Below are positions 35,058-64,000 of a stretch of 64,000 bases of DNA, in pieces. The notes below the pieces were generated by a model. That model had not been told where the DNA came from. It saw only the letters and a program-made list of their open reading frames with translations, and ran no database searches. This DNA comes from Acidimicrobiales bacterium. GTDB lineage: Bacteria; Actinomycetota; Acidimicrobiia; Acidimicrobiales; Aldehydirespiratoraceae. The position numbers and the translations under genes were made by a program. The DNA is taken from contig JAQWMR010000018.1 of assembly GCA_029246685.1 (NCBI GenBank), positions 62,001 through 126,000 on the forward strand, written 5' to 3'. Position 1 is the first letter of the stretch, and each line of letters opens with the position of its first letter.

Positions 35058-36441
35058 ACGATCACTTCGACGGTTCATCCTCATCGCGGCGGTGTTCGCC
35101 ACGCTTGCGTCCGGATGCTCGGACGACACCGAGTCGACAGCTGAGGTGGCAACGAGCTCGACTCAACCGCCTCCGACGACGACCGCCGAGCCGGTCAATG
35201 ATGCGCCCACGACCACGAGCGCGGAGGACGAGCAGAACTTCGCAAGCTTTCGGGGGGTGACGGAAGACTCGATAAAGGTCGGAGTGACCGTCCCCGACTT
35301 CGACGCGCTCCAGGCCGCGGGATTGCCGAACTACCAGGGCGACAACCGGATCGCGTTCCAGGCATTCTTCGACCAGATCAACGATGCCGGCGGAATCCAC
35401 GGCCGCATGATCGAACCGGTCTATGCCGACTTCAGCTTCGTGGACGCAGCCAGTCAGGACACGGCGTGCAGCGAACTGGCCGAGGACGCAGAGGTGTTCA
35501 TCGTCCTCTTCGGCCTGCTCGCCGACAGCAACCTCTGCTTCACCGAGCTCAACGAGACCATGGTGATGACGTTCTCGTATCAGACGATCGCCGCCCGATC
35601 ACGCTCCGGCGACACCCTCTGGCTCCAAGAGGAAGCGGCCGACGAGGCCGAAGTTGACATCCTCGGGTCAGCGGTAGCCGGCGCGGGACATCTCGAAGGC
35701 GCGACCGTCGGGATCCTGGCCAGCGCTGCGACCGGCGGACTCGTCGTCGGCGAAGCGCTCGAGCAGACGCTCTCCCGTCACGGGCACGAGTCGACTATCT
35801 ACCTCGCCGAAGACACCGCGGGCGACGGGACTGCCCGCGACGCGATGATCCAACGCCTCGCTCAGCGAATGGCGGCCGACGGGGTGGACTTCCTCTTCAA
35901 CCTGGGCGGAGGCGGCACATGGACCGAGGATCTCGCCGACGCCGGATTCCATCCGCCCCGCACCGCGTACCTCGTCCTCAACACCGACACCGAAGCAGCC
36001 AGCGACAAGACGCTGCTCGCCGGAGGTCTGGCCGTCGGCTCGGTGACCCCCGATGACGTCTGGGCGGACCCGGAATTCCAGGAGATCTGCATTGCACCGA
36101 TTCTCGCGGCGTACCCCGAACTCACCGAGGAGTTCAGCTATCTCCCCGACTCCGACCAACAGGCGACCGGAGAGCGAAACTGGCTCACTCAGACCCGGAG
36201 CGCCTGTAACCAAACGAGGCTGCTGACACAGCTGGGAGAGATCGCCGGGGCCGACCTGACGAACGATTCGTTCCGCGCCGCACTCGACGAACTCGGACCG
36301 GTCGAGTTGCTCGGCTACGGCCAGGCGAGCTTCACCAGCGCCGGGAAGTGGGACGGACTCGACGAGTTCTATCTCCAGGAGTACGACGTCGAGACCGACT
36401 CCCTCCAGATCATCGGCGACGCCATCGTCGTCGACCGATAG
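35047..36441 (+). CDS. Substrate-binding lipoprotein, LivK-type periplasmic binding fold I
   Basis: 464 residues. Basic N-terminus, hydrophobic stretch FILIAAVFATLASGC with lipobox LASGC, then a Thr/Ser/Pro-rich tether (TSSTQPPPTTTAEP). The type I binding fold begins at SIKVGVTVPDFDALQAAGLP, with GDNRIAFQAFFDQINDAGGI and HGRMIEPVYADF typical of branched-chain amino-acid/amide/aromatic-acid receptors. ATG 35047 follows GGAAAGG. No permease or ATPase genes are adjacent, so transport would depend on components elsewhere, or the protein only senses or binds. A near-identical C-terminus is encoded at the right window edge. Confidence 0.9.
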   Translation: MRDRRSLRRFILIAAVFATLASGCSDDTESTAEVATSSTQPPPTTTAEPVNDAPTTTSAEDEQNFASFRGVTEDSIKVGVTVPDFDALQAAGLPNYQGDNRIAFQAFFDQINDAGGIHGRMIEPVYADFSFVDAASQDTACSELAEDAEVFIVLFGLLADSNLCFTELNETMVMTFSYQTIAARSRSGDTLWLQEEAADEAEVDILGSAVAGAGHLEGATVGILASAATGGLVVGEALEQTLSRHGHESTIYLAEDTAGDGTARDAMIQRLAQRMAADGVDFLFNLGGGGTWTEDLADAGFHPPRTAYLVLNTDTEAASDKTLLAGGLAVGSVTPDDVWADPEFQEICIAPILAAYPELTEEFSYLPDSDQQATGERNWLTQTRSACNQTRLLTQLGEIAGADLTNDSFRAALDELGPVELLGYGQASFTSAGKWDGLDEFYLQEYDVETDSLQIIGDAIVVDR

Positions 36442-36460
36442 CGCAACCGGCGCGGGCGGT

Positions 36461-37678
36461 TCAACCGAGGGTGAGTTCGCGGGCGTTTTCGACCATGATC
36501 CGACGCTGATCCTTCAGCGAAAAACCCTCCACCTTGGCGAAGAAGTCGCGTGGGTGGCCCATCCCTTCAGCGTGCGGCCAGTCGGAGCCGAACAGGATCC
36601 GCTCCACCGGCACGTGCGTCGCGAGATCGGCCACATCGTCCTCGACAAACGGCGCCACCCAGCAGTTGTCGTAGAACTGGTCGACCGGGTTCTCTTTGAA
36701 CATGCCCGGGTTCTGCCCGTGCAACACCTGAAGACCGTGGAGCAGATCACCCACCCACGTGCCCCCGTTTTCGATGAACGCGACGCGCACGCCGGGGTGG
36801 CGTTCGAAGAGCTTGTCGGCCACGAGGACAGCAGCGAAGTCGTGGACCAGCCGGTGCTTCATGAGCATCGAGACAAGGGTCGACGCTGCGGCATCGCCCA
36901 TGCCCGTCGTCACGCTTCCTCGCCCCCACTCGTCGGCGACCGCCTCCTGCACCTTTACGTAGCCGTCCTCGAAACCGGCATGGGGGGCGATGACGACACG
37001 GGCCTCGGCCACACGGGCCCAGAACGGATCGAAAGCCGGATCGGCCGGTGACCGAGTGCCATCGCGTGTGAAGACCGGCCCGTTGCGGATCGACACGACG
37101 CGAGCGCCCCGGTCGATGCACCATTCGAGCTCCGCGACCGCACCGTCCACGTCGGAGAGCGTGAGGAACGGCACGCCGAAGATGCGGTCGGCGTAGGCGA
37201 AGCCCCAGTCCTCTTCGATCCAGCGGTTGAAGGCCCCGAGGATGTGGATCGACGCCTCGATGTCGGGCTGCATCGGCCCCTCCATGCACACACCTTGGGA
37301 GGGGAACATCCAGCAGGCCTCGACGCCTTGCTCATCCATGGTCGCCAGCCGAGCGTCACGGTCGAACCACTCGGGATGGGCAGTGGGGTCCATACATTTC
37401 AGCTCGTCGCCGAGGCGGGCCTTGTCACTCGTGCCCGCGAAGTAGTCGTAGAGGGCGCCGGGTCGTGGCCGCGGATGGATGTCGCCCGGGCCGGGCAGGA
37501 TCGGGTGGACCCGTCCGTTGTCGAGCAGGTAGTTGAGTTTGCCATCACCGTTGACATCGACGAGTCGCACACCACGATCAGCAAAGGCCGGGTCGCGGTG
37601 CCGGGTCAGCGCGTCGGTGGCTTCCCAGTAGTGGTTGTCGGCGTCGAAGATCGTGGTGATCTGATCGCTGGTGTTCAT
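36461..37678 (-). CDS. Amidohydrolase family 2 protein
   Basis: 405 residues. ATG 37678 has GGGAGAAG upstream and is 11 nt beyond the previous gene's stop. Motifs are IFDADNHYWEATDALTRHRD (Asp-x-His), VVIAPHAGFEDGYVKVQEAV (middle His) and LFGSDWPHAEGMGHP (Asp). It shares the DADNH(Y/M)xE and T-R-H layout with the copy at 55302, its closest relative here. It is the last gene of the long minus-strand run and converges with the substrate-binding protein gene. Confidence 0.91.
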   Translation of the reverse strand: MNTSDQITTIFDADNHYWEATDALTRHRDPAFADRGVRLVDVNGDGKLNYLLDNGRVHPILPGPGDIHPRPRPGALYDYFAGTSDKARLGDELKCMDPTAHPEWFDRDARLATMDEQGVEACWMFPSQGVCMEGPMQPDIEASIHILGAFNRWIEEDWGFAYADRIFGVPFLTLSDVDGAVAELEWCIDRGARVVSIRNGPVFTRDGTRSPADPAFDPFWARVAEARVVIAPHAGFEDGYVKVQEAVADEWGRGSVTTGMGDAAASTLVSMLMKHRLVHDFAAVLVADKLFERHPGVRVAFIENGGTWVGDLLHGLQVLHGQNPGMFKENPVDQFYDNCWVAPFVEDDVADLATHVPVERILFGSDWPHAEGMGHPRDFFAKVEGFSLKDQRRIMVENARELTLG

Positions 37679-37689
37679 GGTCTTCTCCC

Positions 37690-39414
37690 TCAGTCGGTCC
37701 CGTGACGGAGCAGCAGTCCGGGGGTCGCCTGCGTGCATTCACCGTCGATGAATGTGGTCTGACCGTTGACGATGATGCGGTCGTAGCCGATCGCCTTCTG
37801 GATCAGCCTCCACTCCCCCGCCGGATAGTCCCACACTCGCTCCTGGGGTCCGCTGTCGACGGTCTCGGGGTCGTAGACGATGATGTCGGCCGGCAGGCCC
37901 TCACGGAGATACCCACGATCCCTCAATCCGGCCGCCTGGGCCGGATAGGCGGAGAGCCGCCAATGTGCCTCCTCGAGCGACATGATCTCGTGCTCGCGGA
38001 TCCAGTAGCCGAGCAACTCACTCGGATAGCGAGCGGTCGTGACGAACTTCGTGTGGGCGCCACCGTCACTGATGCCGGGGAGCGCCATTGTCGACGTCGC
38101 GATCTCCTTCATGGCCTCGGGAGGCGTAATGAGCATCGGCGTCGCGAAACCGACCATCAATGCTCCGGCGACGGCCACATCGAGCATCGCGTCGACCGGA
38201 TGCTTCCCTTCTCGATCGGCGATCTCACCGATCGTGAAACCCTCGTAGGTCTCCTTGAGTCGCTGCGCGTCAGGCGCATCACTCGAGATCCAGTGGACCT
38301 TGATCTCCGATTGCGGATAGCCGGCCCCGAACAGCCCGCCGCGATCGTCGTGGATCTGCTTCATCGCCACCCGTCGCTCCGGGTCGGCGAGCTTGACCCG
38401 CTTCTCCTCGACCGTGCCCAGGAGAGCCTCCTTCCAGCAGGGAATGGCGTCGAGCAGGTTGTACTCCTCGAAGGTGAATTCGGAGGCGAAGTTCGTCGTG
38501 AGCGCCTGGGCGTAGACGCGCACTCCCTCGTCTTCGTTGAGTTCCTTCAGCCGCTGGAGTGCTTCCCCGTGCGAGGTCCGTGCAGAACCGTGTTGGTTCA
38601 GCGCTCCGTCGGCCAGCAGCGCGTTCCAGATGTTGGGTCGACCGCTCTCGCGGGCGATCAGCGCCGCCGTCTCGAGTTCCCCCGTGATCTGCGTCGTTCC
38701 CCGGCCCACCTCGCGCAGCGCGTGGGAGAAGGCCAGCACCTCGTTCTCCGGCATGAGGTCGGTCACCATCGGTGTGCCGTCATGGTCGAGCTGCACGTTG
38801 CCGACGTCGCCGGCAATCTGCACGCTCCAGCCACAGGCCCCGGCTTCCATCCCCTCGATGAGCAGCTCACACATCTGCTCGAGTTCGGCTTCGGTCACCC
38901 GGCGATCCTTGGCCTCGTCGATGCCCACTACATATCCGTAGAGCGGCGCCAGCGGGACGAACGTCATCACGTTGACGCCCTTGGGGGCACGGTCGACGCT
39001 GTCGAGGAATTCCGGGAAGGTCTCCCAGTCCCAGGGCATCCCCTCTCTCATCGTGGCCAGCGGCACGGCTTCGTTGCGTGACAGCGACAGCATCGCCCGG
39101 TCCTGGTCCTCGGGTTTGCAAGGCGCGAATCCGAATCCGCAGTTGCCGATGACCACGCTGGTCACGCCGTGCCAGCCCGACATCGTGCACCACGGGTCCC
39201 AGAAGAGCTGGCTGTCGTAGTGGGTGTGGAGATCGACCACGCCGGGTGCGACTATCCGGCCGGTGGCGTCGACCACCTCCGTGCCGTCGGCCGCGTCGAT
39301 GCGGCCGATCTGTGCGATCCGGCCGTCGACGATGCCGACGTCGGCTCGATAGCGCGGCGTCTGCAATCCGTCGATGACGGTGCCACCCTTGATGATCAGG
39401 TCGTAGCGAGGCAT
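37690..39414 (-). CDS. Amidohydrolase family 3, N-acyl-D-amino-acid deacylase-like
   Basis: 574 residues with the composite urease-fold layout: N-terminal beta-sandwich strand YDLIIKGGTVIDGLQTPRYR, metal motif GVVDLHTHYDSQLFWDP (His-x-His), GCGWSVQIAGD, and C-terminal SDGGAHTKFVTTARYP with closing strand DIIVYDPETVDSGP. The usual metal-bridging Cys/Lys cannot be assigned with certainty. Close relatives cleave N-acyl-D-amino acids, but in catabolic clusters the substrate is often an unknown amide or cyclic imide. ATG 39414 is preferred (AAGGGA, 9 nt) over GTG 39432, which overlaps the upstream gene's 3' end. Confidence 0.88.
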   Translation of the reverse strand: MPRYDLIIKGGTVIDGLQTPRYRADVGIVDGRIAQIGRIDAADGTEVVDATGRIVAPGVVDLHTHYDSQLFWDPWCTMSGWHGVTSVVIGNCGFGFAPCKPEDQDRAMLSLSRNEAVPLATMREGMPWDWETFPEFLDSVDRAPKGVNVMTFVPLAPLYGYVVGIDEAKDRRVTEAELEQMCELLIEGMEAGACGWSVQIAGDVGNVQLDHDGTPMVTDLMPENEVLAFSHALREVGRGTTQITGELETAALIARESGRPNIWNALLADGALNQHGSARTSHGEALQRLKELNEDEGVRVYAQALTTNFASEFTFEEYNLLDAIPCWKEALLGTVEEKRVKLADPERRVAMKQIHDDRGGLFGAGYPQSEIKVHWISSDAPDAQRLKETYEGFTIGEIADREGKHPVDAMLDVAVAGALMVGFATPMLITPPEAMKEIATSTMALPGISDGGAHTKFVTTARYPSELLGYWIREHEIMSLEEAHWRLSAYPAQAAGLRDRGYLREGLPADIIVYDPETVDSGPQERVWDYPAGEWRLIQKAIGYDRIIVNGQTTFIDGECTQATPGLLLRHGTD

Positions 39415-39428
39415 GGCTGTGGTTCCCT

Positions 39429-40933
<1,505 letters not shown>

Positions 40934-40934
<1 letters not shown>

Positions 40935-41578
40935 CAGCTCGCGCCGCCGAGCGACGCGAGGCAGAACCGCCACAGGTCATCGCCCAGTGTGGGGTCGGGT
41001 CCGTCCACGAACGAATGATGATGGTGCACCGACATCACGAGCTGGCCGATAAACCAGGCATCGCGATCGGGGTCGGCCGAGCACAACGTGCCAGCCTCGC
41101 ACCCGGCCCGGATCTCGGTCGCGACCAGATCGGCATACGGCCTCGTGGCGGCGGAGATCTCGTCGGGGAAGAGCTTGGCGAGGCGCCAGTGCTCCGATGC
41201 AATGAACCGGCCCGGCGCGTTGCCGGGCGTCGCGAGAGGCCCCGCAACGGCGAGCACGATCGATCGCAGCCGATCGACCGGGTTCTCGAACTCATCTGCC
41301 TGCGCCGCGAACTCTTCACAAGCCGAGGCGATCATGTCCTCGATCACGGCGAGCAGGAGCTCGTCCTTCCCGCCGAAGTAGCGGTAGAAGGTCTGTAGGG
41401 CGACCCCGGCCTCCTTCACCAACTCCTGGGTGGTGAACTCCTCGGCGCCGCCGGTGATCAGTCGCTGGGCCGCCTCCACGATCAGCTGGGCCTGTTCGAT
41501 GCTGCGCTCGCGGGAGCGCTGAACCCGCGGCGATCGATCGGCAGCCCGATCCGCCCAGGAGACAGCGGCGTCGCTCAT
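40934..41578 (-). CDS. TetR-family transcriptional regulator
   Basis: 214 residues, ATG 41578 with AAGGAA. The helix-turn-helix domain runs ~22-75: AQLIVEAAQRLITGGAEEFT, TQELVKEAGVALQTFYRYFG and GKDELLLAVIEDM. The C-terminal domain has SVHHHHSFVDGPDP, a His cluster that could line the ligand pocket. It sits inside a long minus-strand run between an F420-type reductase and a lipoprotein hydrolase, not at its head. Its target may be the CGTTCTACC-type repeats at 47051 and 49990, but nothing in the sequence ties them directly. Confidence 0.93.
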
Positions 41579-41630
41579 TTCCTTGCCCTCTTGGCCTTGG
41601 GGCCGGGGCGGGCGGCCCCCGCTTCACTCA
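41576..41630 (-). repeat. 55-bp intergenic element, copy 1
   Basis: This exact stop-to-start spacer matches the spacer at 48701-48755 at 46 of 55 positions without gaps, by my count. On the transcribed strand it contains GGGGGCCGCCCG followed by CCCCGGCCCC, able to form a GC-rich hairpin, and ends in the next gene's ribosome site. It may be a duplicated control element or a remnant of gene shuffling. Confidence 0.7.
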
Positions 41631-42071
41631 CGACGCGGCGAGCGGTGTCAGTACGACGACGGGAATCTCGCGCTCGGTTCGCGACTGGTAGACCTCGTAA
41701 TTCGGCCACTGTTCGTTGACCGCGGCCCACAGGGCCGGCTTCTCCTCGGCGGTGGCCGTGTGGGCCTCCACGTCGATCACGTCGCCCTTGATCTGCACGC
41801 GGGCGGCGGCGTTGGCCTCGAGGTTGAGATACCACTGCGGATGCATCGGCGCGCCACCCATCGATGCGACCACGAGATAGTTGCCCTCGTGGGCGGCGAA
41901 GATCAGTGGCGATGTCCGCCCCAGACCGCTCTTGCGGCCGGTGGTGGTGAGCAACAACGCTGTTGCGCCGTTCCAGAGGTAGCCCTCCTCGCCGTCGGTC
42001 TCGCGGTAACGCTGCACGTGCTCTTCACCGAGCAGCATGATGTCAGGGGCCGTGTAGCCGTCTTCAGCCAT
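41628..42071 (-). CDS. F420-type nitroreductase/DDN-family protein
   Basis: 147 residues, split-barrel deazaflavin-dependent nitroreductase (DDN/DUF385) family. The signature TTTGRKSGLGRTSPLIFAAH, then GNYLVVASMGGAPMHPQWYL and NLEANAAARVQIKG, is standard. ATG 42071 follows GGAGGAGAT and overlaps the P450 3' end by 8 nt; a longer frame upstream is antisense-like coding of the P450. Relatives reduce quinones, enones or nitro groups with F420H2. Next to a P450 and SDR it could reduce an enone. Confidence 0.9.
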   Translation of the reverse strand: MAEDGYTAPDIMLLGEEHVQRYRETDGEEGYLWNGATALLLTTTGRKSGLGRTSPLIFAAHEGNYLVVASMGGAPMHPQWYLNLEANAAARVQIKGDVIDVEAHTATAEEKPALWAAVNEQWPNYEVYQSRTEREIPVVVLTPLAAS

Positions 42072-43344
42072 TTTGATCTCCTCCATTTTCGGTGGGCGGG
42101 TCGAACACCACCGGGATCTCGCTGGCCGCTCGTTCGTAGAGACCAATGAGCTCCGGCGCGGGCCGGTCGGGGTCGAGACGCAGACCGGGCAGTCGATCGA
42201 GCAGCGCATTGATGCCGGTGGTCATTTCGAGGCGGGCGAGATGCATGCCGAGGCACACATGGGCACCGCCACCGAAGCCGAGCGACGGCTTCAGCTGGCG
42301 ATGAATGTCGAATTCGTCGGGGTCGTCCCAGCGAGCAGGGTCGCGGTTTGCCGCACCCAAGCACATGTGCATGACCGCCCCCTTGGGGATCGACACGCCG
42401 CCGAGCTCGGTGTCTTCGGTGACCCATCGAGAGAACATCGGGTCGGTCGGCTCCCACCGCAACGACTCCTCGATGAGCGGCTTGATCTTCGAGCGATCGG
42501 CTCGTACTTCTTCGAGCAACTCCGGCCGGGTCAGGAGCGTCGCAATCGCGATGCCCATCTGCTTCCACGTGGTGCCGGAGCCGGCGAGCAGCAACAAGAC
42601 CGCGAACGAGTGGATCTCGTCATCGGAGAGCCGGTGGACACTGCCGTCGTCGCCGGCGAGCTCCGCCTCGACCAGCACGCTGATGAGGTCGTCGAGTGGC
42701 TGCTCACGTCGCGCCGCGAGGATCGGTGCGAGAAAGTCGCTCATCCACTCGGCGTCGTGAAGGTTGCTCCGCACGTCGAGAGCCTGATCGACCGCGATGC
42801 CGAAGCTTCCGGTGATCGTGAGCACAGGTATCGATGCACAGAAGTCGACATTGAGCTCGGCCGCACCGTCGTCGAGGAAGAAGTCGATGAGCATGTTGGC
42901 CGAGGAGTCGACCCATTTGTCGAGCCACCAATGCATCTTTGCGGGAACGAAGGACGGCTGGACGAGGTTGCGGTACCGCCGGTGCGGCGCGCCACCCATC
43001 ATCAGCATGCTGGCCTCGTGACCGACGGGGGCGTCCGGCTGGTCGACGGCCTGCGGAGAGGAGGCATAGATCGTGTCGTTTCGATAGACCTGATCGATGG
43101 TCTCGAAACTGAAGGCCGAGAAGTGGGGCCGGTCAGGCTCGGGCAAGCCATGGAAGATCGCCGGGCCATCGTGTCCGATCAGGTCGTGAACGGTGCCTTC
43201 CTGCACGGCGGCGCGCTCACGCAGTTCTCGGAACGACGCGTGGAGGTCGCCGGCGTAGCCGCCGCCTGTGAATTCGAAGACCGGGCTGCGAATGTCGAAG
43301 AGTTCTCTGATGCGGTCGCGGTCGAGGGCGTCGATGGAGGTCAT
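42064..43344 (-). CDS. Cytochrome P450
   Basis: A 426-residue P450. I-helix LLLAGSGTTWKQ, EESLRWEPTD (ExxR) and heme loop FGGGAHVCLGMHLARLEMTT. The N-terminal part has an unusual start (DALDRDRIRELFDIRSPVFE) and an aromatic F-G region (KMHWWLDKWVD). It is 2 nt from the SDR and in the same run as a ferredoxin gene two positions upstream, the only ferredoxin in the window, which makes that its likely electron donor. It differs from the other four P450s in the I-helix (GSGTT rather than G-x-E-T-T). Confidence 0.95.
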   Translation of the reverse strand: MTSIDALDRDRIRELFDIRSPVFEFTGGGYAGDLHASFRELRERAAVQEGTVHDLIGHDGPAIFHGLPEPDRPHFSAFSFETIDQVYRNDTIYASSPQAVDQPDAPVGHEASMLMMGGAPHRRYRNLVQPSFVPAKMHWWLDKWVDSSANMLIDFFLDDGAAELNVDFCASIPVLTITGSFGIAVDQALDVRSNLHDAEWMSDFLAPILAARREQPLDDLISVLVEAELAGDDGSVHRLSDDEIHSFAVLLLLAGSGTTWKQMGIAIATLLTRPELLEEVRADRSKIKPLIEESLRWEPTDPMFSRWVTEDTELGGVSIPKGAVMHMCLGAANRDPARWDDPDEFDIHRQLKPSLGFGGGAHVCLGMHLARLEMTTGINALLDRLPGLRLDPDRPAPELIGLYERAASEIPVVFDPPTENGGDQNG

Positions 43345-43345
43345 C

Positions 43346-44125
43346 TCACTTCGCCACGTATCCGCCGTCGACCGGCACGAGGATGCCGGTGAGGTTCATC
43401 GCTCGATCGGAGCAGAGGAAGACGGCGGCCTCGGCGCAGTCCTCTGCGGTGATCGCACGACCGAGCGGATGCGTGGCCGCTACCGATGCCTCGATGGGGT
43501 CGAGCTGATCAGCCGGAAGGTCCATGCCCCCGGCCGCCATGAACCCGGTGCGGGGCATCGCCGCCGGGCAGATCGCGTTCACCCGCACACCGTGGGGGGC
43601 AGCCTCGACCGCGACCGCCTTGGTGAGCTGGTGCACTGCGCCTTTGGTGGCGCCATACACCGTCCCACCCCAGCCCACGAGACCGGCGACCGACCCGGTG
43701 TTGAGGACCACGCCACCCCCGCCCTGTGCCTTGAATTGCACGACGGCGTGCTTGCATCCGAAGAAGACCCCGCCGACGTTGACGGCGAACAGACGCTCGA
43801 AGTCCGCCGCAGTGTGGTCTTCGAGCTGAGCGCCGAGCCGAGGGGTAGGGATGCCGACATTGTTGTAGAGGACGTCGAGGCTTCCGAAGTGCTCGACGGC
43901 GGCCGCGATCATCGCCTCGACCTGGTCCTCTTGCGACACGTCGACCGCGTGGGCAACGGCGGTGCCACCGGCAGCCTCGACGAGAGCAGCGGTCTCGGCC
44001 GCCGAGTCGGCGTTGAGATCTGCGGACAGGACCTTCGCTCCCTCCTCGGCGAAACGGAGAGCCGACGCCCGTCCGACTCCGGATCCGGCACCGGTGATGA
44101 TGGCGTTCTTACCCTCAAGCAGCAT
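43346..44125 (-). CDS. Short-chain dehydrogenase/reductase
   Basis: 259 residues of classical SDR. TGAGSGVGRA (~10-19), ADLNAD after strand 2 (NAD-type Asp), NNVG, catalytic Ser in NTGSVAG, and YGATK. ATG 44125 follows GGAGAAGG, which itself encodes the end of the ferredoxin gene. Flanked by P450 and ferredoxin in one transcript, it probably oxidises the alcohol the P450 makes, with the aldehyde dehydrogenase upstream taking the product further if it is primary. Confidence 0.93.
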   Translation of the reverse strand: MLLEGKNAIITGAGSGVGRASALRFAEEGAKVLSADLNADSAAETAALVEAAGGTAVAHAVDVSQEDQVEAMIAAAVEHFGSLDVLYNNVGIPTPRLGAQLEDHTAADFERLFAVNVGGVFFGCKHAVVQFKAQGGGGVVLNTGSVAGLVGWGGTVYGATKGAVHQLTKAVAVEAAPHGVRVNAICPAAMPRTGFMAAGGMDLPADQLDPIEASVAATHPLGRAITAEDCAEAAVFLCSDRAMNLTGILVPVDGGYVAK

Positions 44126-44127
44126 GC

Positions 44128-44331
44128 TCAACCTTCTCCTTCGTTCAGGATCAATGCCCTCGTCGGGCAGGACTCCACGGCGATCCGGACCGTCTCCAGA
44201 TCATTGCCCGGCGCATCAACCACAACAGCCTTCGACTCGGCGTCGTGCTCGAATGTCTCACCCGCGTAGACGAGACACATCCCACTGCCGATGCAGGCAT
44301 CTCGATCGACGGTCACGGTCCAGGTGCTCAC
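44128..44331 (-). CDS. 3Fe-4S-type ferredoxin
   Basis: 67 residues, GTG start in TGATGTG overlap context with the amidohydrolase stop. Cys pattern: CIGSGMC (two Cys, with Gly/Ser where a fourth ligand would be) and a later CP (SCPTRALIL), giving three Cys and so a [3Fe-4S] cluster. Acidic, as usual for P450 redox partners. It should carry electrons to the P450 at 42064 and possibly to the other P450s; no ferredoxin reductase is encoded in the window. Confidence 0.93.
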   Translation of the reverse strand: MSTWTVTVDRDACIGSGMCLVYAGETFEHDAESKAVVVDAPGNDLETVRIAVESCPTRALILNEGEG

Positions 44332-44332
44332 A

Positions 44333-45535
44333 TCAGATCCCGGCGAGCACGGGAGGCTCTGCCGGCGTGAATCGGTAGAGCGTCTCGGCGTTGCCGCGGA
44401 GGAGCTTGTACTGCACGTCGGCGGGCAGGTGCTCGATCTGGCCGCGGACGTTGCCGATGCAGTCGGGCCACGTGGAGTCGGAGTGCGGATAGTCGGTCTC
44501 GCACATCACGTTGTCGACCCCGATCTCGTCGAGGCTGGCGATGCCGTGCTCGTCGTGAATGAAGCAGCCGAACATGTGATCACGGAACGTGGCCCGCACA
44601 TCGATGTCGTCGAGGTTGACGTCGGTGGCCGCATGGTCCATGAACGTCTGCCCTCGCATGACCCAGTACTTCTGCTTGTCGAGCACCTGCTCAGCCCGCT
44701 CAAGAAAGTAGGGGATCCATCCAATTTCGCCCTCGGACAGGGCGACCTTCAACTTCGGGAAGCGATGGAACACACCGCTGAAGATGAACGACAGCATGCA
44801 ACCGGAGGTGCGGATGGCCCCCCATGTGAGGTTGGCCATGAAGGGCGAGTCACTGGCGATTTTGGGCACTTGCGACGACGATCCGACATGGATAGATGCG
44901 ACCATCTCGAGGTCGTTGGCCGCGGCGAAGACAGGGTCCCAGTACCGGTCGGGATCGTGGATCGTCGGAAGACCGAGGGGCTCGGCGTTCTCGGTGAACG
45001 CGAACGCGGTGACGCCCTTGGCCGCCATGCGTTCCATCTCTTTGGCGGCGAGGTGCGGGTCCCAAAGCGGGATGAGCATCAACGGGATGTAGCGCCCCGG
45101 CGCCGCGCCGCACCACTCCTCGACGATCCAGTCGTTGTAGTGCTGGAGACACTCGAACCCGAAGGTCTGGTCGCTCGCTTCGTAGAAGAGCTGCCCGCAA
45201 AACCGTGTGATCGTAGGAAAGCAGAGGGACGCGAGGATGCCGGCCTGATCCATGTCGTCGAGGCGGGCCTTCGAGTCGTAGCAGCCGGGACGCATCTCCG
45301 AATACGGCAGCGGGTCGGTGCTGAACTCCTCCTTGGTCTTGCCCGCGACGGCGGCCAGGCCGACGGTCGGAAACTTCTTGCCGTCGTAGACCCACATCTC
45401 GATGCCATCGTGGGTCTCCATGTGTGGCGCGCGGTCGCGATCCTTGGCCGCGACGCGATCGACCCAGAGGTTGGGCGGTTCGAGGATGTGGTCGTCGACG
45501 GAGATCAGCCAGTCGAGCGGAAGATCGGATCCCAT
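44333..45535 (-). CDS. Amidohydrolase family 2 protein
   Basis: 400 residues from ATG 45535. Motifs are LISVDDHILEPPNLWVDRVA (Asp-x-His), ASIHVGSSSQVPKI (middle His) and MCETDYPHSDSTWP (Asp). FSGVFHRFPKLKVALSEGEI, then GWIPYFLERAEQ, is the conserved strand and helix. CETDYPH replaces the more usual GSDYPH. It lies between aldehyde dehydrogenase and ferredoxin genes in the long minus run. Confidence 0.91.
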   Translation of the reverse strand: MGSDLPLDWLISVDDHILEPPNLWVDRVAAKDRDRAPHMETHDGIEMWVYDGKKFPTVGLAAVAGKTKEEFSTDPLPYSEMRPGCYDSKARLDDMDQAGILASLCFPTITRFCGQLFYEASDQTFGFECLQHYNDWIVEEWCGAAPGRYIPLMLIPLWDPHLAAKEMERMAAKGVTAFAFTENAEPLGLPTIHDPDRYWDPVFAAANDLEMVASIHVGSSSQVPKIASDSPFMANLTWGAIRTSGCMLSFIFSGVFHRFPKLKVALSEGEIGWIPYFLERAEQVLDKQKYWVMRGQTFMDHAATDVNLDDIDVRATFRDHMFGCFIHDEHGIASLDEIGVDNVMCETDYPHSDSTWPDCIGNVRGQIEHLPADVQYKLLRGNAETLYRFTPAEPPVLAGI

Positions 45536-45555
45536 GGATGTATCCCTTCGGGTCG

Positions 45556-47025
45556 TCACCGGGGAAGCTCCCCGATCGAGACGTGTTTCACTTCTTGGAA
45601 CTCGCGGATGCCCTCGGGGCCGCGCTCGCGGCCGAGCCCGCTGTGCTTGTAGCCACCGCTCGGGGCGTAGGCGCTGTAGACGGTGGTGTTCACGCTGACC
45701 GCGCCGGTGCGCAGGCGGCGGGCCACGTCGAGGCCGGCGGCTGCGTTTGCGCTCCAGACCTGGCCCGACAGGCCGTAGTCGCTGTCGTTGGCCATCTCGA
45801 TCGCGTGGTCGATGTCGCGGTAGCCGATCACGCCCAGCACCGGCCCGAAGATTTCGTCGCGGGCGGCAGGATTGTCGTTGTCGGGAAGGTCGAGCACCGT
45901 CGGCTGGAAGTAGTAGCCCTTGTCGAGCCCGTCGGGTCGCGCCCCGCCCGTCACCACCTTGCCGCCGTGTTCTTCCGCAAGCCCGACGTAGGTCTCGCAC
46001 CGCTCACGCTGGGCCGCACTGATCAGCGGGCCGATCATCACACCGGGATCGGCCGGCCGCCCCACGGTCAGCGACTCGTAGGTGGCGGCGACGGTCTGGA
46101 GCACGTCGTCCTTGCGGTCCTCGGGCACGAACATCCGGCTGGCGGCCACACATGCCTGGCCCGCGGTCATCGCGCACATCATCATCGCCCCCATGGCGAC
46201 TTGGTCGATGGCGTCGGGCAGATGGATCTGCGCCGACTTTCCGCCGAGTTCGAGCGACACCCGCTTCACGGTGGCCGCGGCCTGGCCGAGAATCCGAGAA
46301 CCCACCGCGGTCGATCCGGTGAACGACACCATGTCGACCGCCCGGTGCGTGGTGAGCATCTCTGCGCCGGCGGACCCCGCTTCGGTGATCACGCTCAGCA
46401 CGCCCGGCGGCAGCTCGGCCGCCTCGGCGGCGGCGCCCAGGGCAAGACACTCGATCGGGGTGAGCGGACTCGGCCGGACGATCACGGAGTTGCCGCCCAT
46501 GAGGGCCGGAACGAGCTTCTGCAGGCTCATCAGTAGCGCGGCATTGAACGGGGTGATCGCGCTGACCACGCCGACCGGCTCATGGCGCCGCACACTCAAC
46601 GCCACCCGCCCCTGCACCAACTCGTCGACGGGCACGGGGGTGTGGTCCTCGTGGGCCATCGAGAGGTAGAGGTCGATGGTCTGGCGACCCTGGGCGATGC
46701 CACCGGTGACCTGGGTCGACTGGGCGAGGTACGGAGGCTGGCCCGCTTCGGCCACGATGGTGTCGCCGAGGTCGGCCGCCATCGATTCGAGGTGGTCGAG
46801 GAACCGATGCAGGGTCGCGGCGCGGTCGGCGGGCGCCACGTCGGCCCACACCCGGCTGTCGAAGCTGCGCCGGGCCTCGCGGATCGCCCTCTCGACCTCC
46901 ACGGCCGGAGTGGCGGTGATCTCGGCGACCGTCGATTCGTCGGCCGGGTTCTCCACGGCCATGGCTTCCTCGCCGGTCACCCAATCGCCGGCGACGAACG
47001 AACGCTTCTCAGAAATGACGGCCAC
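45556..47025 (-). CDS. NAD(P)-dependent aldehyde dehydrogenase
   Basis: About 489 residues from GTG 47025 (a TTG at 47061 would add 12 residues and run through a repeat motif). GVVSAITPFNAALLMSLQKL (substrate/NAD channel), VSFTGSTAVGSRI, catalytic Glu in LELGGKSAQI, catalytic Cys in AGQACVAASR and EIFGPVLGVIGYRDIDHAIE all match the ALDH superfamily. It converts an aldehyde to acid, or to acyl-CoA in some subfamilies; the downstream P450/SDR set could supply the aldehyde. First gene of the segment below the thiolase unit. Confidence 0.93.
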   Translation of the reverse strand: MAVISEKRSFVAGDWVTGEEAMAVENPADESTVAEITATPAVEVERAIREARRSFDSRVWADVAPADRAATLHRFLDHLESMAADLGDTIVAEAGQPPYLAQSTQVTGGIAQGRQTIDLYLSMAHEDHTPVPVDELVQGRVALSVRRHEPVGVVSAITPFNAALLMSLQKLVPALMGGNSVIVRPSPLTPIECLALGAAAEAAELPPGVLSVITEAGSAGAEMLTTHRAVDMVSFTGSTAVGSRILGQAAATVKRVSLELGGKSAQIHLPDAIDQVAMGAMMMCAMTAGQACVAASRMFVPEDRKDDVLQTVAATYESLTVGRPADPGVMIGPLISAAQRERCETYVGLAEEHGGKVVTGGARPDGLDKGYYFQPTVLDLPDNDNPAARDEIFGPVLGVIGYRDIDHAIEMANDSDYGLSGQVWSANAAAGLDVARRLRTGAVSVNTTVYSAYAPSGGYKHSGLGRERGPEGIREFQEVKHVSIGELPR

Positions 47026-47050
47026 GGGCCCCCCGGGTCGTGTGGAATAT

Positions 47051-47060
47051 CGTTCTACCA
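47051..47060. promoter_or_regulatory. CGTTCTACCA motif upstream of the aldehyde dehydrogenase
   Basis: Same 10-mer as at 49990-49999 upstream of the CoA-transferase, 26 nt before the GTG used here. The right half is poorly kept here (CAGAA 9 nt on). Candidate half-site for a regulator of the minus-strand run. Confidence 0.35.
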
Positions 47061-47090
47061 AAGCACAGAATGAGACTCTCTACAAGCGCC

Positions 47091-48290
47091 TCATCCGGGA
47101 TCGTTGGTGTAGACGACCGCACCGCCGAGATGGGGCGACGCGTGACAGGCAAGGGCCACGTTCGCGTCGCGTTGTCGGTCGCCGGCCCGACCGGCGAGTT
47201 GCAGATACGACTCGAGCATCTGGGGGATGCCGTGCATCCTCCCGTTGCCCAGGGCACCGCCTCCGGAGAGCACGGGGAGCCCGTCGGGCCGGTCGCTGTC
47301 GATCCCCCCGTCGGCGATGAAGCGGTGGGCCTCGCCCGGCTCGCAGAAGCCCAGCGACTCCAGCCAGAACCAGATGAAGGGCGAGAACCCGTCGTAGAGC
47401 TGCGGCAGATCGACCTCGTCCGAGCCGACTCCCACGGCGGCCCACAGACGACGAGCGGTCTCTCGACCGCCGTCCATGATGTCGTCGAGGGGCCAATGCA
47501 GCGGCATCCGCGATCGCGTCGGCGCGCCCGTCGCATAGCCGGACACGTGGACCGGGCGGTGAGGGAGATCCCGGGCCCGCTCGGCCGACGTGAAGACGAA
47601 CGTCGCGACGCCGTCGACCGGAATATCACAGTCGTACTGGCAGATCGGGTCGAACATCGGCTCGGCATCGAGATACGTCTCGGCGGCCAACGGTCGGTCG
47701 TGCCAGAACGACCACGGGATGCGCGATCCGTTCTTTCGGGCTTCGACCGCGATCGCCGCAAGGCCTTCTCGGGTCGCGCCGTATCGCTCCAGGTACTCGG
47801 TGGTCGGCAGCGCGATCATCGCCAGCGGACCGAAGTATCCCTGCGGCGCCGTCCACTGCTGTTCACCACCGAAACTGGCACGGGAACTGCCGTGGTATCG
47901 ACCCTTCGGATTGTGCAACGCGCGGTGCAACACAACATGGTCAGCGGCGCCGCCGGCGATCGCATTGACGGCGAGCGCCACGCTCCCGGGGATCTGGCCC
48001 ATCCCCGAGAAGCCCGCGGCGTAGCGAGGATTGACGCCGAGGCTGCGGGCCAGCCAGTTGGGCGACACCGTGCTCACCCCGTCGATGATGAGGTGATCAC
48101 CCGCGGTCGGGAACAGCGCCGACCCGACGAACCCGTCGATCTGATCCACGGAGAGACCGGCGTCGGCGATCGCGGCCCTGGTGGTGTCGACGGTGATGGC
48201 ACCGAGCGTGCGATCCGAGCGCCGCTCGATCTTGCTGTGGGCGTAGCCGACGATGGCAACCTCGTTGCGGGCGCGGAACGAACGGGTCAT
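47091..48290 (-). CDS. Thiolase-fold protein (Ltp2-like), partner of DUF35 protein
   Basis: 399 residues. VAIVGYAHSKIERRSDRTLG, GFVGSALFPTAGD, ADHVVLHRALHNPKGRYHGS, LPQLYDGFSPFIWFWLESLG and SGGGALGNGRMHGIPQMLES place it in the lipid-transfer thiolase branch. The classic catalytic Cys in the central segment is absent, as in Ltp2-type aldolases. ATG overlaps the DUF35 stop by 4 nt (ATGA). Probably a retro-aldolase or a thiolase acting on a CoA ester after side-chain oxidation. It is clearly diverged from the copy at 30113. Confidence 0.88.
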   Translation of the reverse strand: MTRSFRARNEVAIVGYAHSKIERRSDRTLGAITVDTTRAAIADAGLSVDQIDGFVGSALFPTAGDHLIIDGVSTVSPNWLARSLGVNPRYAAGFSGMGQIPGSVALAVNAIAGGAADHVVLHRALHNPKGRYHGSSRASFGGEQQWTAPQGYFGPLAMIALPTTEYLERYGATREGLAAIAVEARKNGSRIPWSFWHDRPLAAETYLDAEPMFDPICQYDCDIPVDGVATFVFTSAERARDLPHRPVHVSGYATGAPTRSRMPLHWPLDDIMDGGRETARRLWAAVGVGSDEVDLPQLYDGFSPFIWFWLESLGFCEPGEAHRFIADGGIDSDRPDGLPVLSGGGALGNGRMHGIPQMLESYLQLAGRAGDRQRDANVALACHASPHLGGAVVYTNDPG

Positions 48291-48703
48291 GGGCGCAACC
48301 GGAATGCAGGCAGGGCCACGTCGTCGTTCAGGTCTTCCCAGGCGAGATCAACCGCGAGCCCGAGGGCGAGGGGTGCGTCGATCCCGTCGAGGAAGCGACC
48401 GATCAGCCGGACGTCCTCGGCCGCATCGAGTTCGACGTCGACGAGAACGAACGGCACGTCATCGTCGAACCCGGGGAGGAAGGACTGGCGGACGACGGTC
48501 CACGACCGGATCACGCCCGCCCCGTCGACCGGCTCGAACGTGATCTCGCGATCGGTACTGCCGCAGTGGCCGCACACGGGCTCGGGCGGCAGCGTGAGGG
48601 CGGAGCAGTTGCTGCATCGAGCCAGCGTGAGCACATGGTCGCCAGCCGCCGCCCAGAAGGGCGCCGTGGTGTCGTTGGGCACGGGAATCGGCCGAGCATT
48701 CAT
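48287..48703 (-). CDS. Zn-ribbon/OB-fold DUF35 protein
   Basis: 138 residues with zinc ribbon CSNCSALTLPPEPVCGHCGS and OB strands GVIRSWTVVRQSFLPGF and VPFVLVDVELDAAEDVRLIG. It should bind the thiolase-fold protein encoded directly downstream. The start is preceded by the 55-bp spacer repeated at 41576. Confidence 0.92.
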   Translation of the reverse strand: MNARPIPVPNDTTAPFWAAAGDHVLTLARCSNCSALTLPPEPVCGHCGSTDREITFEPVDGAGVIRSWTVVRQSFLPGFDDDVPFVLVDVELDAAEDVRLIGRFLDGIDAPLALGLAVDLAWEDLNDDVALPAFRLRP

Positions 48704-48755
48704 TGCCGTACCCTCGTGGCCTGTCGGCCGGGCCGGGCGGCCCCCGCTTCGCTCA
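48701..48755 (-). repeat. 55-bp intergenic element, copy 2
   Basis: Exact stop-to-start spacer between the CoA-transferase and DUF35 genes; see the copy at 41576-41630 (46 of 55 identical). The core GGGCGGCCCCCGCTTC is identical in both on the plus strand. Confidence 0.7.
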
Positions 48756-49964
48756 TGGAATCACGCCGGCCGTCTTCAGTTCGATGATCCGGTCCCAGTC
48801 ATGCCCGAGTTCGAGCAGCACCGCCTCGGTGTGCTCTCCGTGTTCGGGCGCCCGTCGCAGCTCCGGAGGCTGCTCGTCGAACTGCACCGGCACGGCCGGC
48901 AGCCGGTAGGTCTCGCCGCCGTCGAGCTCGACATCACCGACGTAGCCGTTGGCGAGCACCTGCGGATCGTCGACGAGTTCTTCCACCGACTGCACCGGCG
49001 CCCATGGCGCGTCGATCGTCGCGAGCGCCGCGACGACATCGGCGAAGCTCCGCTTGCCGAACTCCGCATCGAGCGCAGCCACACACGCGTCGCCGTTCTC
49101 GGCCCGGCTCCCATGGTCGACGAAGCGCTGATCGTCGATCAGGTGCTCACAGCCCAGAGCACGACAGAAGTCGGCCCAGTAGCGGTCGGACTGGAGGAAG
49201 ACGAGCGACACGTGGCGACCGTCGGCCGTGCGATAGGTGCCGACGAGCGGATTCGGGAACGACCCCCGTCCCTCTCCGCGCCGCACCTCTGCGCCGTTGA
49301 GCGCAGCCAGCAAGTCCGACGACAAGGTCCACATGGCGGTGGCGAGCAACGAGACATCGACGACCGAACCCTTCCCGGTCCGATGGCGCCGCAGCAGCGC
49401 GCCGGCGATCCCGAAGGCTAGGGCCATGGCGCCGTTCCGATCCCCCATCGCCCCTCGCTGTTGGATCGGATAGTCGCGTTCGGTCGGGGTGAGCACATGG
49501 GCGAGTCCGCCGCGGGCGAAGAAGGCCGACGCGTCGTAGCCGGCATGGTCGGCGTCGGGTCCGCGCACGCCATAGCCGTGACCCCGGGCGTAGACGAGCT
49601 GGGGAAAGCGATCCCGCACCGCGTCGGCGCCGAGGCCGAGCCGTTCGAGCGCACCGGGACGAAGGTTGGTGAGGAACACGTCGGCCGAGTCGAGCAGCTC
49701 GTCGAGCACGGCGCGACCCTCCTCACTCCGAAGGTCGAGCGCGATCGAGCGCTTGCCCCGGTTGGCGAGCGCCATCGAGAGGTTGACGCCACCGCGGTCG
49801 GTGCCGATCCCCTGCGATGCGAGCGCACGGTAGGGGTCACCCTCGAGCTTCTCGATGCGGATGACGTCGGCCCCCCAGTCGGCGAGCAGCGCGCCGGCGA
49901 CCGGCACGAACACCCACTGGGCGAGCTCGACGACCTTCACTCCCTCGAATGCGCCCTCGTTCAC
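48753..49964 (-). CDS. CaiB/BaiF-family CoA-transferase
   Basis: 403 residues, GTG 49964 after [26 protein letters not shown], then [40 protein letters not shown] and [12 protein letters not shown] with the acyl-carrying Asp (G-Y-D). This is a normal single-domain family III CoA-transferase, unlike the tandem protein at the left edge. It heads the minus-strand run DUF35-thiolase-ALDH and diverges from a phosphotransferase across two CGTTCTACC repeats. It should activate an acid by CoA exchange. Confidence 0.93.
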
Positions 49965-49989
49965 CGGGTCCCCCGATCGTGTCGCCCGC

Positions 49990-50012
49990 CGTTCTACCAC
50001 GCGGGTAGAGCG
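49990..50012. promoter_or_regulatory. Imperfect palindrome in the CoA-transferase/phosphotransferase divergent region
   Basis: CGTTCTACC-ACGCG-GGTAGAGCG: arms match at 8 of 9 positions. A second CGTTCTACC begins at 50014, and one lies upstream of the aldehyde dehydrogenase at 47051. A weak leaderless promoter for the plus gene is possible: TTGCAC 50039-50044, 18 nt, GACATT 50063-50068, GTG 50077. Confidence 0.5.
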
Positions 50013-50076
50013 CCGTTCTACCCCATGGGCGAACGTGCTTGCACATGTTGACGCAGGTGTGCGACATTCGAGCGAC

Positions 50077-51111
50077 GTGACTGCTCCGAGCCCCGCCTTC
50101 GATCCGGTTCCCGCCGAGCTCGACCAGATCCTCGACCCCGGGTGGCTCACCATCGCGCTCGACGATGTGGCCGACGACGAGCGCGTCATCGATGTCGAAG
50201 TCGCGGGCGACTCGAAAACACTGGCGCAGAAGGTGCGTTTCGTCGCCACCGTCGAGGGGGCCGACGGCAGCCGACGCACCCGCACCTACTGCGTCAAGGG
50301 ACACTTCGGCGATGCCATGGAGACGCTCACCACCGAGGCCCACGTCTATCGCGACCTGCTTCCCGGCCTCGGCCTGCGCACGCCCCGCGCCTACTACGCC
50401 GGCATCGGCGACGAGGGGCGAGCGGTGATCGTCATGGACGACATCGTGGCCGACGGCGGCACGTTCCTGAACGCCCACCAGCCCTACAGCATCGACATCT
50501 GCCGAGAGACCCTCTCCCAACTCGCGCGACTCCATGCCGCGACGTGGGACGACCCTCGCGGCGACGCCGAGTGGTTGGCCCCGCGGATCGACAGCATGCG
50601 ACAGATGTTCCCCGCCGAGTTCCTCCAGGGCCTGCTCGACGACGGGCGCGGTGTCGATGTCGCCCCGGAGCTGCTCGCCGCCGAACGGCTCCAGGCGGGT
50701 CTGGCCGCCCTCGCGGCGCGGCCGGCGACGTGCATCATCCACGGCGACACCCATTCGGGCAACGTGTATCTCGACGCCGACGGGTGGCCGTGCTGGCTCG
50801 ACTGGCAGATCACACAGCGGGGCCACTGGTCGACCGACGTCGCCTACCACCTGAGCACCGTGCTCGACATCGACGACCGCCGAGCTCACGAGCAGGAGCT
50901 CGTCCGGGGTTACCTGCGTGAGTTGGCTTCGCAGGGCATCGAGCCTCCGCCGTGGGACGAGGCTTGGGCCAGCTACACGACCGGCGCCGTCTGGGGATGG
51001 TTGCTGTGGACCATCACCTCGGTCAGCAGCCGCGAGGTGGTGCTCGTCCACATGCCCCGCATCGGCGCGGCCCTGGCCGACCACGACACGTTCGGAAAGC
51101 TCGGATGCTGA
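50077..51111 (+). CDS. Phosphotransferase, APH/ecdysteroid-kinase-like fold (copy 3 of 3)
   Basis: 344 residues from GTG 50077 (GTG 50059 possible). [20 protein letters not shown] carries the ATP Lys and the Glu of helix [12 protein letters not shown] the hinge, [18 protein letters not shown] the catalytic loop, and [20 protein letters not shown] the metal Asp. It is most like the copy at 17079 in lobe layout. It begins a plus-strand operon with an amidohydrolase relic and an acyl-CoA ligase, each joined by overlapping stop/start codons. Hydroxylated acids or acyl-CoA are plausible substrates. Confidence 0.88.
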
Positions 51112-63638: not shown

Positions 63639-64000
63639 TCAGCGAGTGACGACGATCGGATCGCCGATAGTCAGGAGTGACTCGGTCCCGGCGTCGTACT
63701 CGAGCAGGTAGAACTCATCGAGCCCGTCCCACTTTCCCGCGCTCGTGAAACTGGCGGAACCGAGGCCGTGGAGCTCGACCGGACCCAACTCGTCAAGCGC
63801 AGTGCGAAACGATGCGTTGTTGAGGTCGGCACCGGCAATCTCGCCGAGCTGCTTCAGCAACATGGTCTGGTTGCACGCACTGCGTATCGGAACGAGCCAG
63901 GAGGCCACGCCCGATGCCTGCTGTGAATCGTCGGGCAGTGGCGCCGCTAGTTCCTCGGCCAGCTCCGGATATGACTCCGCCACCGGATTTATGCACGTCG
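63639..64000 (-). CDS. Substrate-binding protein, C-terminal part (cut by window edge)
   Basis: The last 119 residues are visible; the frame stays open to base 64000, so the GTG at 63983 is internal. The sequence (SACNQTMLLKQLGEIAGADL, FRTALDELGPVELHGLGSAS, FTSAGKWDGLDEFYLLEYDA) is nearly the same as the end of the lipoprotein at 35047-36441, so this is a second LivK-type binding protein. It heads the minus-strand unit with the DUF427-TesB and VOC genes. Confidence 0.9.
   Translation of the reverse strand, partial: TCINPVAESYPELAEELAAPLPDDSQQASGVASWLVPIRSACNQTMLLKQLGEIAGADLNNASFRTALDELGPVELHGLGSASFTSAGKWDGLDEFYLLEYDAGTESLLTIGDPIVVTR

Follow-up and report, generated by a model that had tools for sequence, protein, structure and literature searches.

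Why should two spacers of equal length and closely similar sequence lie between gene pairs that are not homologous to each other? In the window, i.e., the whole 64,000-nt stretch of DNA from an Acidimicrobiales bacterium that was analyzed here, the stop-to-start gaps at 41576-41630 (F420-type reductase to TetR) and 48701-48755 (CoA-transferase to DUF35) comprise 55 nt each and are identical at 46 of 55 positions without gaps. A preliminary description of the locus had reported these coordinates, the equal length, and the ungapped identity, all of which are exact on recomputation. Its interpretation holds in part; the 18-codon ORF in each copy, the two 4-nt overlaps of this ORF, and the cluster common to both copies had been missed.

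Reality of the repeated spacer

The repeat is real and very probably not a product of chance. Identity ends with the spacers, as their 10-nt flanks match at only three of 10 positions on one side and two of 10 on the other, and in the rest of the window (the pair itself excluded) neither copy has an ungapped match better than 31/55. Among the 20 listed of 29 direct-repeat families in the window, the spacer pair has the highest identity (84% over 56 nt). A BLAST search of the 3.8-Mb genome with copy 2 and its flanks (65 nt) returns copy 1 with an E value of 6.6e-11, followed by the next match with an E value of 0.03.

A chance resemblance between two GC-rich spacers is an alternative to be weighed. 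The 49-nt core, from which the two DTGA tetramers are left out, has a GC content of 76 to 82%, and because of this the composition-corrected estimate for a match at free positions (any against any) within the window comes only to 0.09. Likewise, 400 random 55-mers of the window find their best match at 32 positions on average, and the highest-scoring of them reaches 46 as well. The significance of the spacer match lies in the exact stop-to-start register at both junctions. Compared in register, the cores agree at 40 of 49 positions; none of 5000 dinucleotide shuffles exceeds 30. As this test already contradicts chance, and as register, length, and the overlaps at both ends are identical in the two copies, such a resemblance is hardly credible. 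The random 55-mer with 46 matches pairs 36334-36388 with 63692-63746 on opposite strands; both stretches are coding and probably belong to paralogous genes.

Architecture of the repeat unit

Read on the minus strand, each copy consists of a complete ORF of 18 codons, which overlaps both of its neighbors by 4 nt. The true unit is 57 nt long (41575-41631 and 48700-48756), as opposed to an untranslated spacer of 55 nt. The features of the locus are as follows.

40934..50000, minus strand: ten-gene cluster with both copies (start of the CoA-transferase gene approximate)
41575..41631, minus strand: copy 1, 18-codon ORF with GTG start, 53 nt from its own start to the next start
41628..41631, minus strand: GTGA, overlap of the F420-type reductase stop and the copy 1 start
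41586..41590, minus strand: GAGGG, putative Shine-Dalgarno-like sequence 7 nt before the TetR ATG
41575..41578, minus strand: ATGA, overlap of the copy 1 stop and the TetR gene start
48700..48756, minus strand: copy 2, 18-codon ORF with ATG start, 53 nt from its own start to the next start
48753..48756, minus strand: ATGA, overlap of the CoA-transferase stop and the copy 2 start
48711..48715, minus strand: GAGGG, putative Shine-Dalgarno-like sequence 7 nt before the DUF35 ATG
48700..48703, minus strand: ATGA, overlap of the copy 2 stop and the DUF35/ChsH2-like gene start

Homology between the copies spans exactly from RTGA to ATGA. Over these 57 nt there are 10 differences, which are distributed as 4/3/3 over codon positions 1/2/3; because of this distribution, no coding constraint is evident that would show the small ORF to be translated. 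The two halves of the ORF differ in their conservation. Codons 1 to 10 contain merely the change of the start codon and two synonymous changes, so that SEAGAARPG is common to both copies, and this could speak for a functional peptide or for a leader peptide that regulates the downstream gene through stalling. Of the last eight codons, however, five alter the residue, the 10 differences lack a third-position bias, and a degenerate pattern that covers codons 1 to 10 only has no exact match in GTDB r220 contigs, from which records near the window's own genome are possibly excluded. With neither the bias nor relatives found by pattern, a functional peptide was rejected; a leader peptide is improbable, and the peptide product itself is probably not the function.

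Folding of the repeat as RNA

The preliminary description had placed a GC-rich potential hairpin before each ribosome site and considered an attenuator, a translational control element, or a mobile intergenic repeat. The conserved core is indeed very GC-rich and short stems are possible in both copies, as would be needed for an RNA hairpin element, be it an attenuator, a terminator, or a translational switch. The folding energies, however, lie at the shuffle mean (z of 0.07 and 0.41), and the minimum-energy structures of the two copies differ. A fold comparison, which had been proposed as a check, reveals no compensatory change in any pair; three of 12 and two of 15 pairs are broken in the other copy, and the 87.5% and 93.3% of cells that still pair there are as expected for sequences so alike. 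Neither copy has a terminator-like or promoter-like site, and no Rfam family is found in 36000-51000. An RNA hairpin element is thus very improbable and the attenuator loses its basis, as does the hairpin behind the translational control element, a notion that gains from the small ORF overlapping both neighbors.

The gene cluster containing both copies

Both copies lie in one cluster of ten genes, 7.1 kb apart and on the same strand, where they form the first (CoA-transferase/DUF35) and the last (F420/TetR) junction. The order of the genes is CoA-transferase III, DUF35/ChsH2-like, thiolase-like, aldehyde dehydrogenase, amidohydrolase-like, a 67-aa ORF, SDR, P450, F420-type reductase, and TetR. 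The gene pairs had been called unrelated, which is correct for the flanking genes, as they are not homologous, but not for their location within a single cluster. Since the genes are co-stranded and separated by short gaps or overlaps, the cluster is likely an operon.

Seventy-three loci of relatives were fetched with the CoA-transferase (L056-L128); the 67-aa ORF was left out of the queries. The closest cluster relatives are 54 to 78% identical in protein, and TetR reaches at most 58%. The whole cluster order is kept on one strand in several of the 73 loci (e.g., L056, L062, L065, L066, and L067). Rearrangements include a TetR half on the opposite strand (L060 and L072) and a TetR half that precedes the CoA-transferase (several Mycobacterium loci). 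Overall, this catabolic-looking cluster recurs in rearranged form in Frankia, Nocardia, Streptomyces, Rhodococcus, Mycobacterium, and uncultured Actinomycetota. In L057 and L111, CoA-transferase relatives with 76 to 77% identity stand outside the cluster context and have no adjoining DUF35.

The corresponding junctions in relatives

Of the 73 loci, 60 are measurable at the CoA-transferase/DUF35 junction and 35 at the F420/TetR junction. At the former, the two genes overlap directly by 4 nt (-4) in 48 of the 60 loci; two further loci are at -1, one is at +2, and nine are at 38 to 257 nt, where the start choice is doubtful (L120 is a broken match). None of the 60 junctions matches the element at more than 32/55. 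An alignment of the window with eight relatives contains a single gap, and this gap begins at DTGA. As most relatives have the direct 4-nt overlap here, the comparison of sequences clearly points to an insertion of 53 nt at the CoA-transferase/DUF35 junction, where a DTGA overlap would have existed before.

The F420/TetR junction is more variable. A 4-nt overlap is present in only seven of the 35 loci, and most others have a spacer of 10 to 29 nt; the element is matched at no more than 25/55 in any of the 35. Among the closest relatives, the overlap occurs in L056, L211 (identical in sequence to L056 at this junction), L060, and the same-genus genome G001 (L046), and the near relative L072 has a gap of 16 nt. 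When 397 genomes of the order were searched, a near TetR was found in eight of them, the window's own genome included. Of these near TetR loci (nine of the order plus G001), three are readable at the junction: L211 and L046, both at -4, and L212, in which a 4-nt overlap is possible via an in-frame GTG. In L216 and L217, TetR lies at a distance of about 550 nt; no F420 match exists in L213-L215, L218, and L219. By the same reasoning, the F420/TetR spacer probably also arose through insertion of 53 nt where DTGA once formed the overlap.

Several Mycobacterium F420/TetR junctions (L063, L075, L088, L110, L119, and L127) contain TAGCATT..C(T/C)TTCGGTGTC or a similar sequence right before a GTG. 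This motif resembles the -10 element of a putative leaderless TetR transcript.

Copy number and gene-bridging ORFs

The genome contains exactly two copies, both within the ten-gene cluster; four other RTGAGYGAAGCG places in the genome, inspected by eye, have no such bridge. No copy was found in 99 relatives, where nine matches at the 3-mismatch limit (in eight genomes) are identical at only 22 to 33 of 57 positions and miss the second DTGA. Viral contigs have zero matches to a similar pattern. A search of plasmids and phages with copy 2 alone as the query returned 59 and 32 records, respectively, with E values up to 10; among the best five of each, with E values of 0.03 to 5, none was accepted as a copy. 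One plasmid match that covers 84% at 77% identity (E value of 1) was taken as chance. A mobile intergenic repeat comes closest among the three options of the preliminary description, but the presence of only two copies limits any claim of mobility. A lack of further copies, together with no effect on expression, had been put forward there as a sign of chance duplication; that the genome has exactly two copies does not turn the match into a chance one.

A text search with GAGCGAAGCGA led to a mycobacterial repeat primer in the literature, and the element was therefore compared with MIRU. Small ORFs of 12 to 40 codons that bridge two genes were collected by a sequence-blind scan of 144 sequences (2.37 Mb), 30 of which were loci fetched with the MIRU pattern, so that MIRU serves herein as a positive control and not as a measure of frequency. 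Among the 50 bridging ORFs there are only two repeat clusters, namely MIRU (seven members) and the element (two members). Of 797 candidate junctions in 831 kb of the window's own genome, 20 have a bridging ORF of 8 to 45 codons, the two copies included. In both counts, genes were defined by a crude GC-position caller. Gene bridging by itself is not rare, whereas the repetition of a bridge is.

Origin of the two copies

The ORF, its two overlaps, and, at the CoA-transferase/DUF35 junction, a clean difference of 53 nt between the window and its relatives are direct observations. They are best explained by a MIRU-like translational-coupling cassette of independent origin—53 nt long and inserted at two DTGA overlaps in one cluster—a reading that is moderately probable. 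Such a cassette would land at a DTGA stop/start overlap between genes. A ribosome that finishes the upstream gene would then reinitiate on the small ORF, translate its 18 codons, stop at the ATGA near the GAGGG of the cassette, and start anew on the downstream gene. Two 4-nt coupling steps would hereby take the place of one, the operon would stay translatable, and the insertion would be tolerable. The cassette may have spread by a MIRU-like route. Points against this reading are the restriction to two copies in one cluster, the F420/TetR overlap in only seven of 35 loci, the distance of the relatives, the occurrence of other bridging ORFs in the genome, and the even spread of the differences over codon positions.

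The first of these points leads to a serious rival, namely that a single ordinary insertion gave rise to one spacer with its small ORF, from which the second DTGA site received its copy through template switching or ectopic recombination inside the cluster, with no mobile class involved. It is serious because both copies share one cluster (and one strand, 7.1 kb apart) and because the chance that a second, independent insertion would hit one of the other junctions of the cluster (eight at most) is about 1.5%, a value based on the crude caller's estimate of approximately 540 four-nt overlaps genome-wide. The lack of a third copy in the genome fits as well. However, the copied stretch ends exactly at two DTGA tetramers and has no flank homology, which ordinary recombination would not favor, and its geometry equals that of MIRU. 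Local copying is regarded as the less likely reading.

Comparison with MIRU and related systems

DTGA sites were reportedly named as MIRU targets by Supply in 1997. Matches to the MIRU core are present in four of five Mycobacterium or Mycolicibacterium genomes (12, 10, 3, and 29 places; zero in the fifth), and the reversed pattern, used as a control, has zero matches in all five. Seventeen distinct MIRU units were parsed from 35 rows listed, after removal of duplicates and of rows in which DTGA did not flank both sides at the set distance or less. Measured from start to start, 10 of them are 53 nt long and four are 52 nt, with one each at 51, 54, and 59 nt; eight of the 17 have an 18-codon ORF that ends at the downstream DTGA. 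Some mycobacterial MIRUs (L141, L147, L157, and L169) contain an extra GC-rich stretch between core and 3' end with a palindrome-like core, CTCCCGCTTGCGGGGGAG or similar.

A 2025 review describes MIRUs as apparently mobile elements that insert at start codons, with an ORF coupled at -4 nt (PMC12548453), and another paper gives MIRU sizes of 53 and 77 bp (PMC4213456). The element resembles MIRU in being a short repeat between genes with DTGA at both ends, in its internal and putatively translated ORF that overlaps both neighbors by 4 nt, and in a purine-rich stretch before the downstream start. With 53 nt from start to start it has the commonest MIRU length and falls among short units of about 50 to 77 nt between co-oriented genes; it shares the 18 codons with the eight MIRU units mentioned. 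Insertion at a DTGA overlap is a further likeness, clear at the CoA-transferase/DUF35 junction and probable at F420/TetR.

Sequence and copy number set the two apart. No homology to MIRU was found by shuffle tests or with a profile: alignment scores to the MIRU consensus fall short of the shuffle mean (reached or exceeded in fractions of 0.98 and 0.90), the element is not among the 22 matches listed for the MIRU profile in the window (E values up to 14), and the MIRU core is absent from the genome and the 99 relatives. The element occurs in two copies in one cluster, whereas MIRU is dispersed, with between 3 and 29 places in each of four Mycobacterium genomes.

MIRU might be only one instance of a wider class, with a second, sequence-unrelated family outside Mycobacterium that has the same 53-nt, 18-codon, DTGA-to-DTGA design; this is put forward tentatively. 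In a limited search of the open-access literature, the term MIRU-like was not found for elements outside mycobacteria. Should the wider class be true, translational-coupling sites would offer tiny bacterial repeats a niche for insertion that has been used more than once. If the cassette reading is right, the element would be a non-mycobacterial, sequence-unrelated analogue of MIRU that has the same geometry. The design rule, i.e., a small ORF coupled where DTGA joins two genes, would be separable from the MIRU sequence, and the locus would offer a simple two-copy case for cassette movement and its effect on coupling strength. The annotation of the spacers would change as well, from intergenic to a likely translated bridge.

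The element also resembles short ORFs whose stop overlaps the next start, for which the same review proposes the delivery of ribosomes as opposed to a useful peptide (PMC12548453). It differs from these in being repeated at two sites, in lying between the genes of a cluster, and in overlapping its neighbors at both ends. Taken together, the element would work like a MIRU, yet it stands apart from MIRU in sequence and in copy number.
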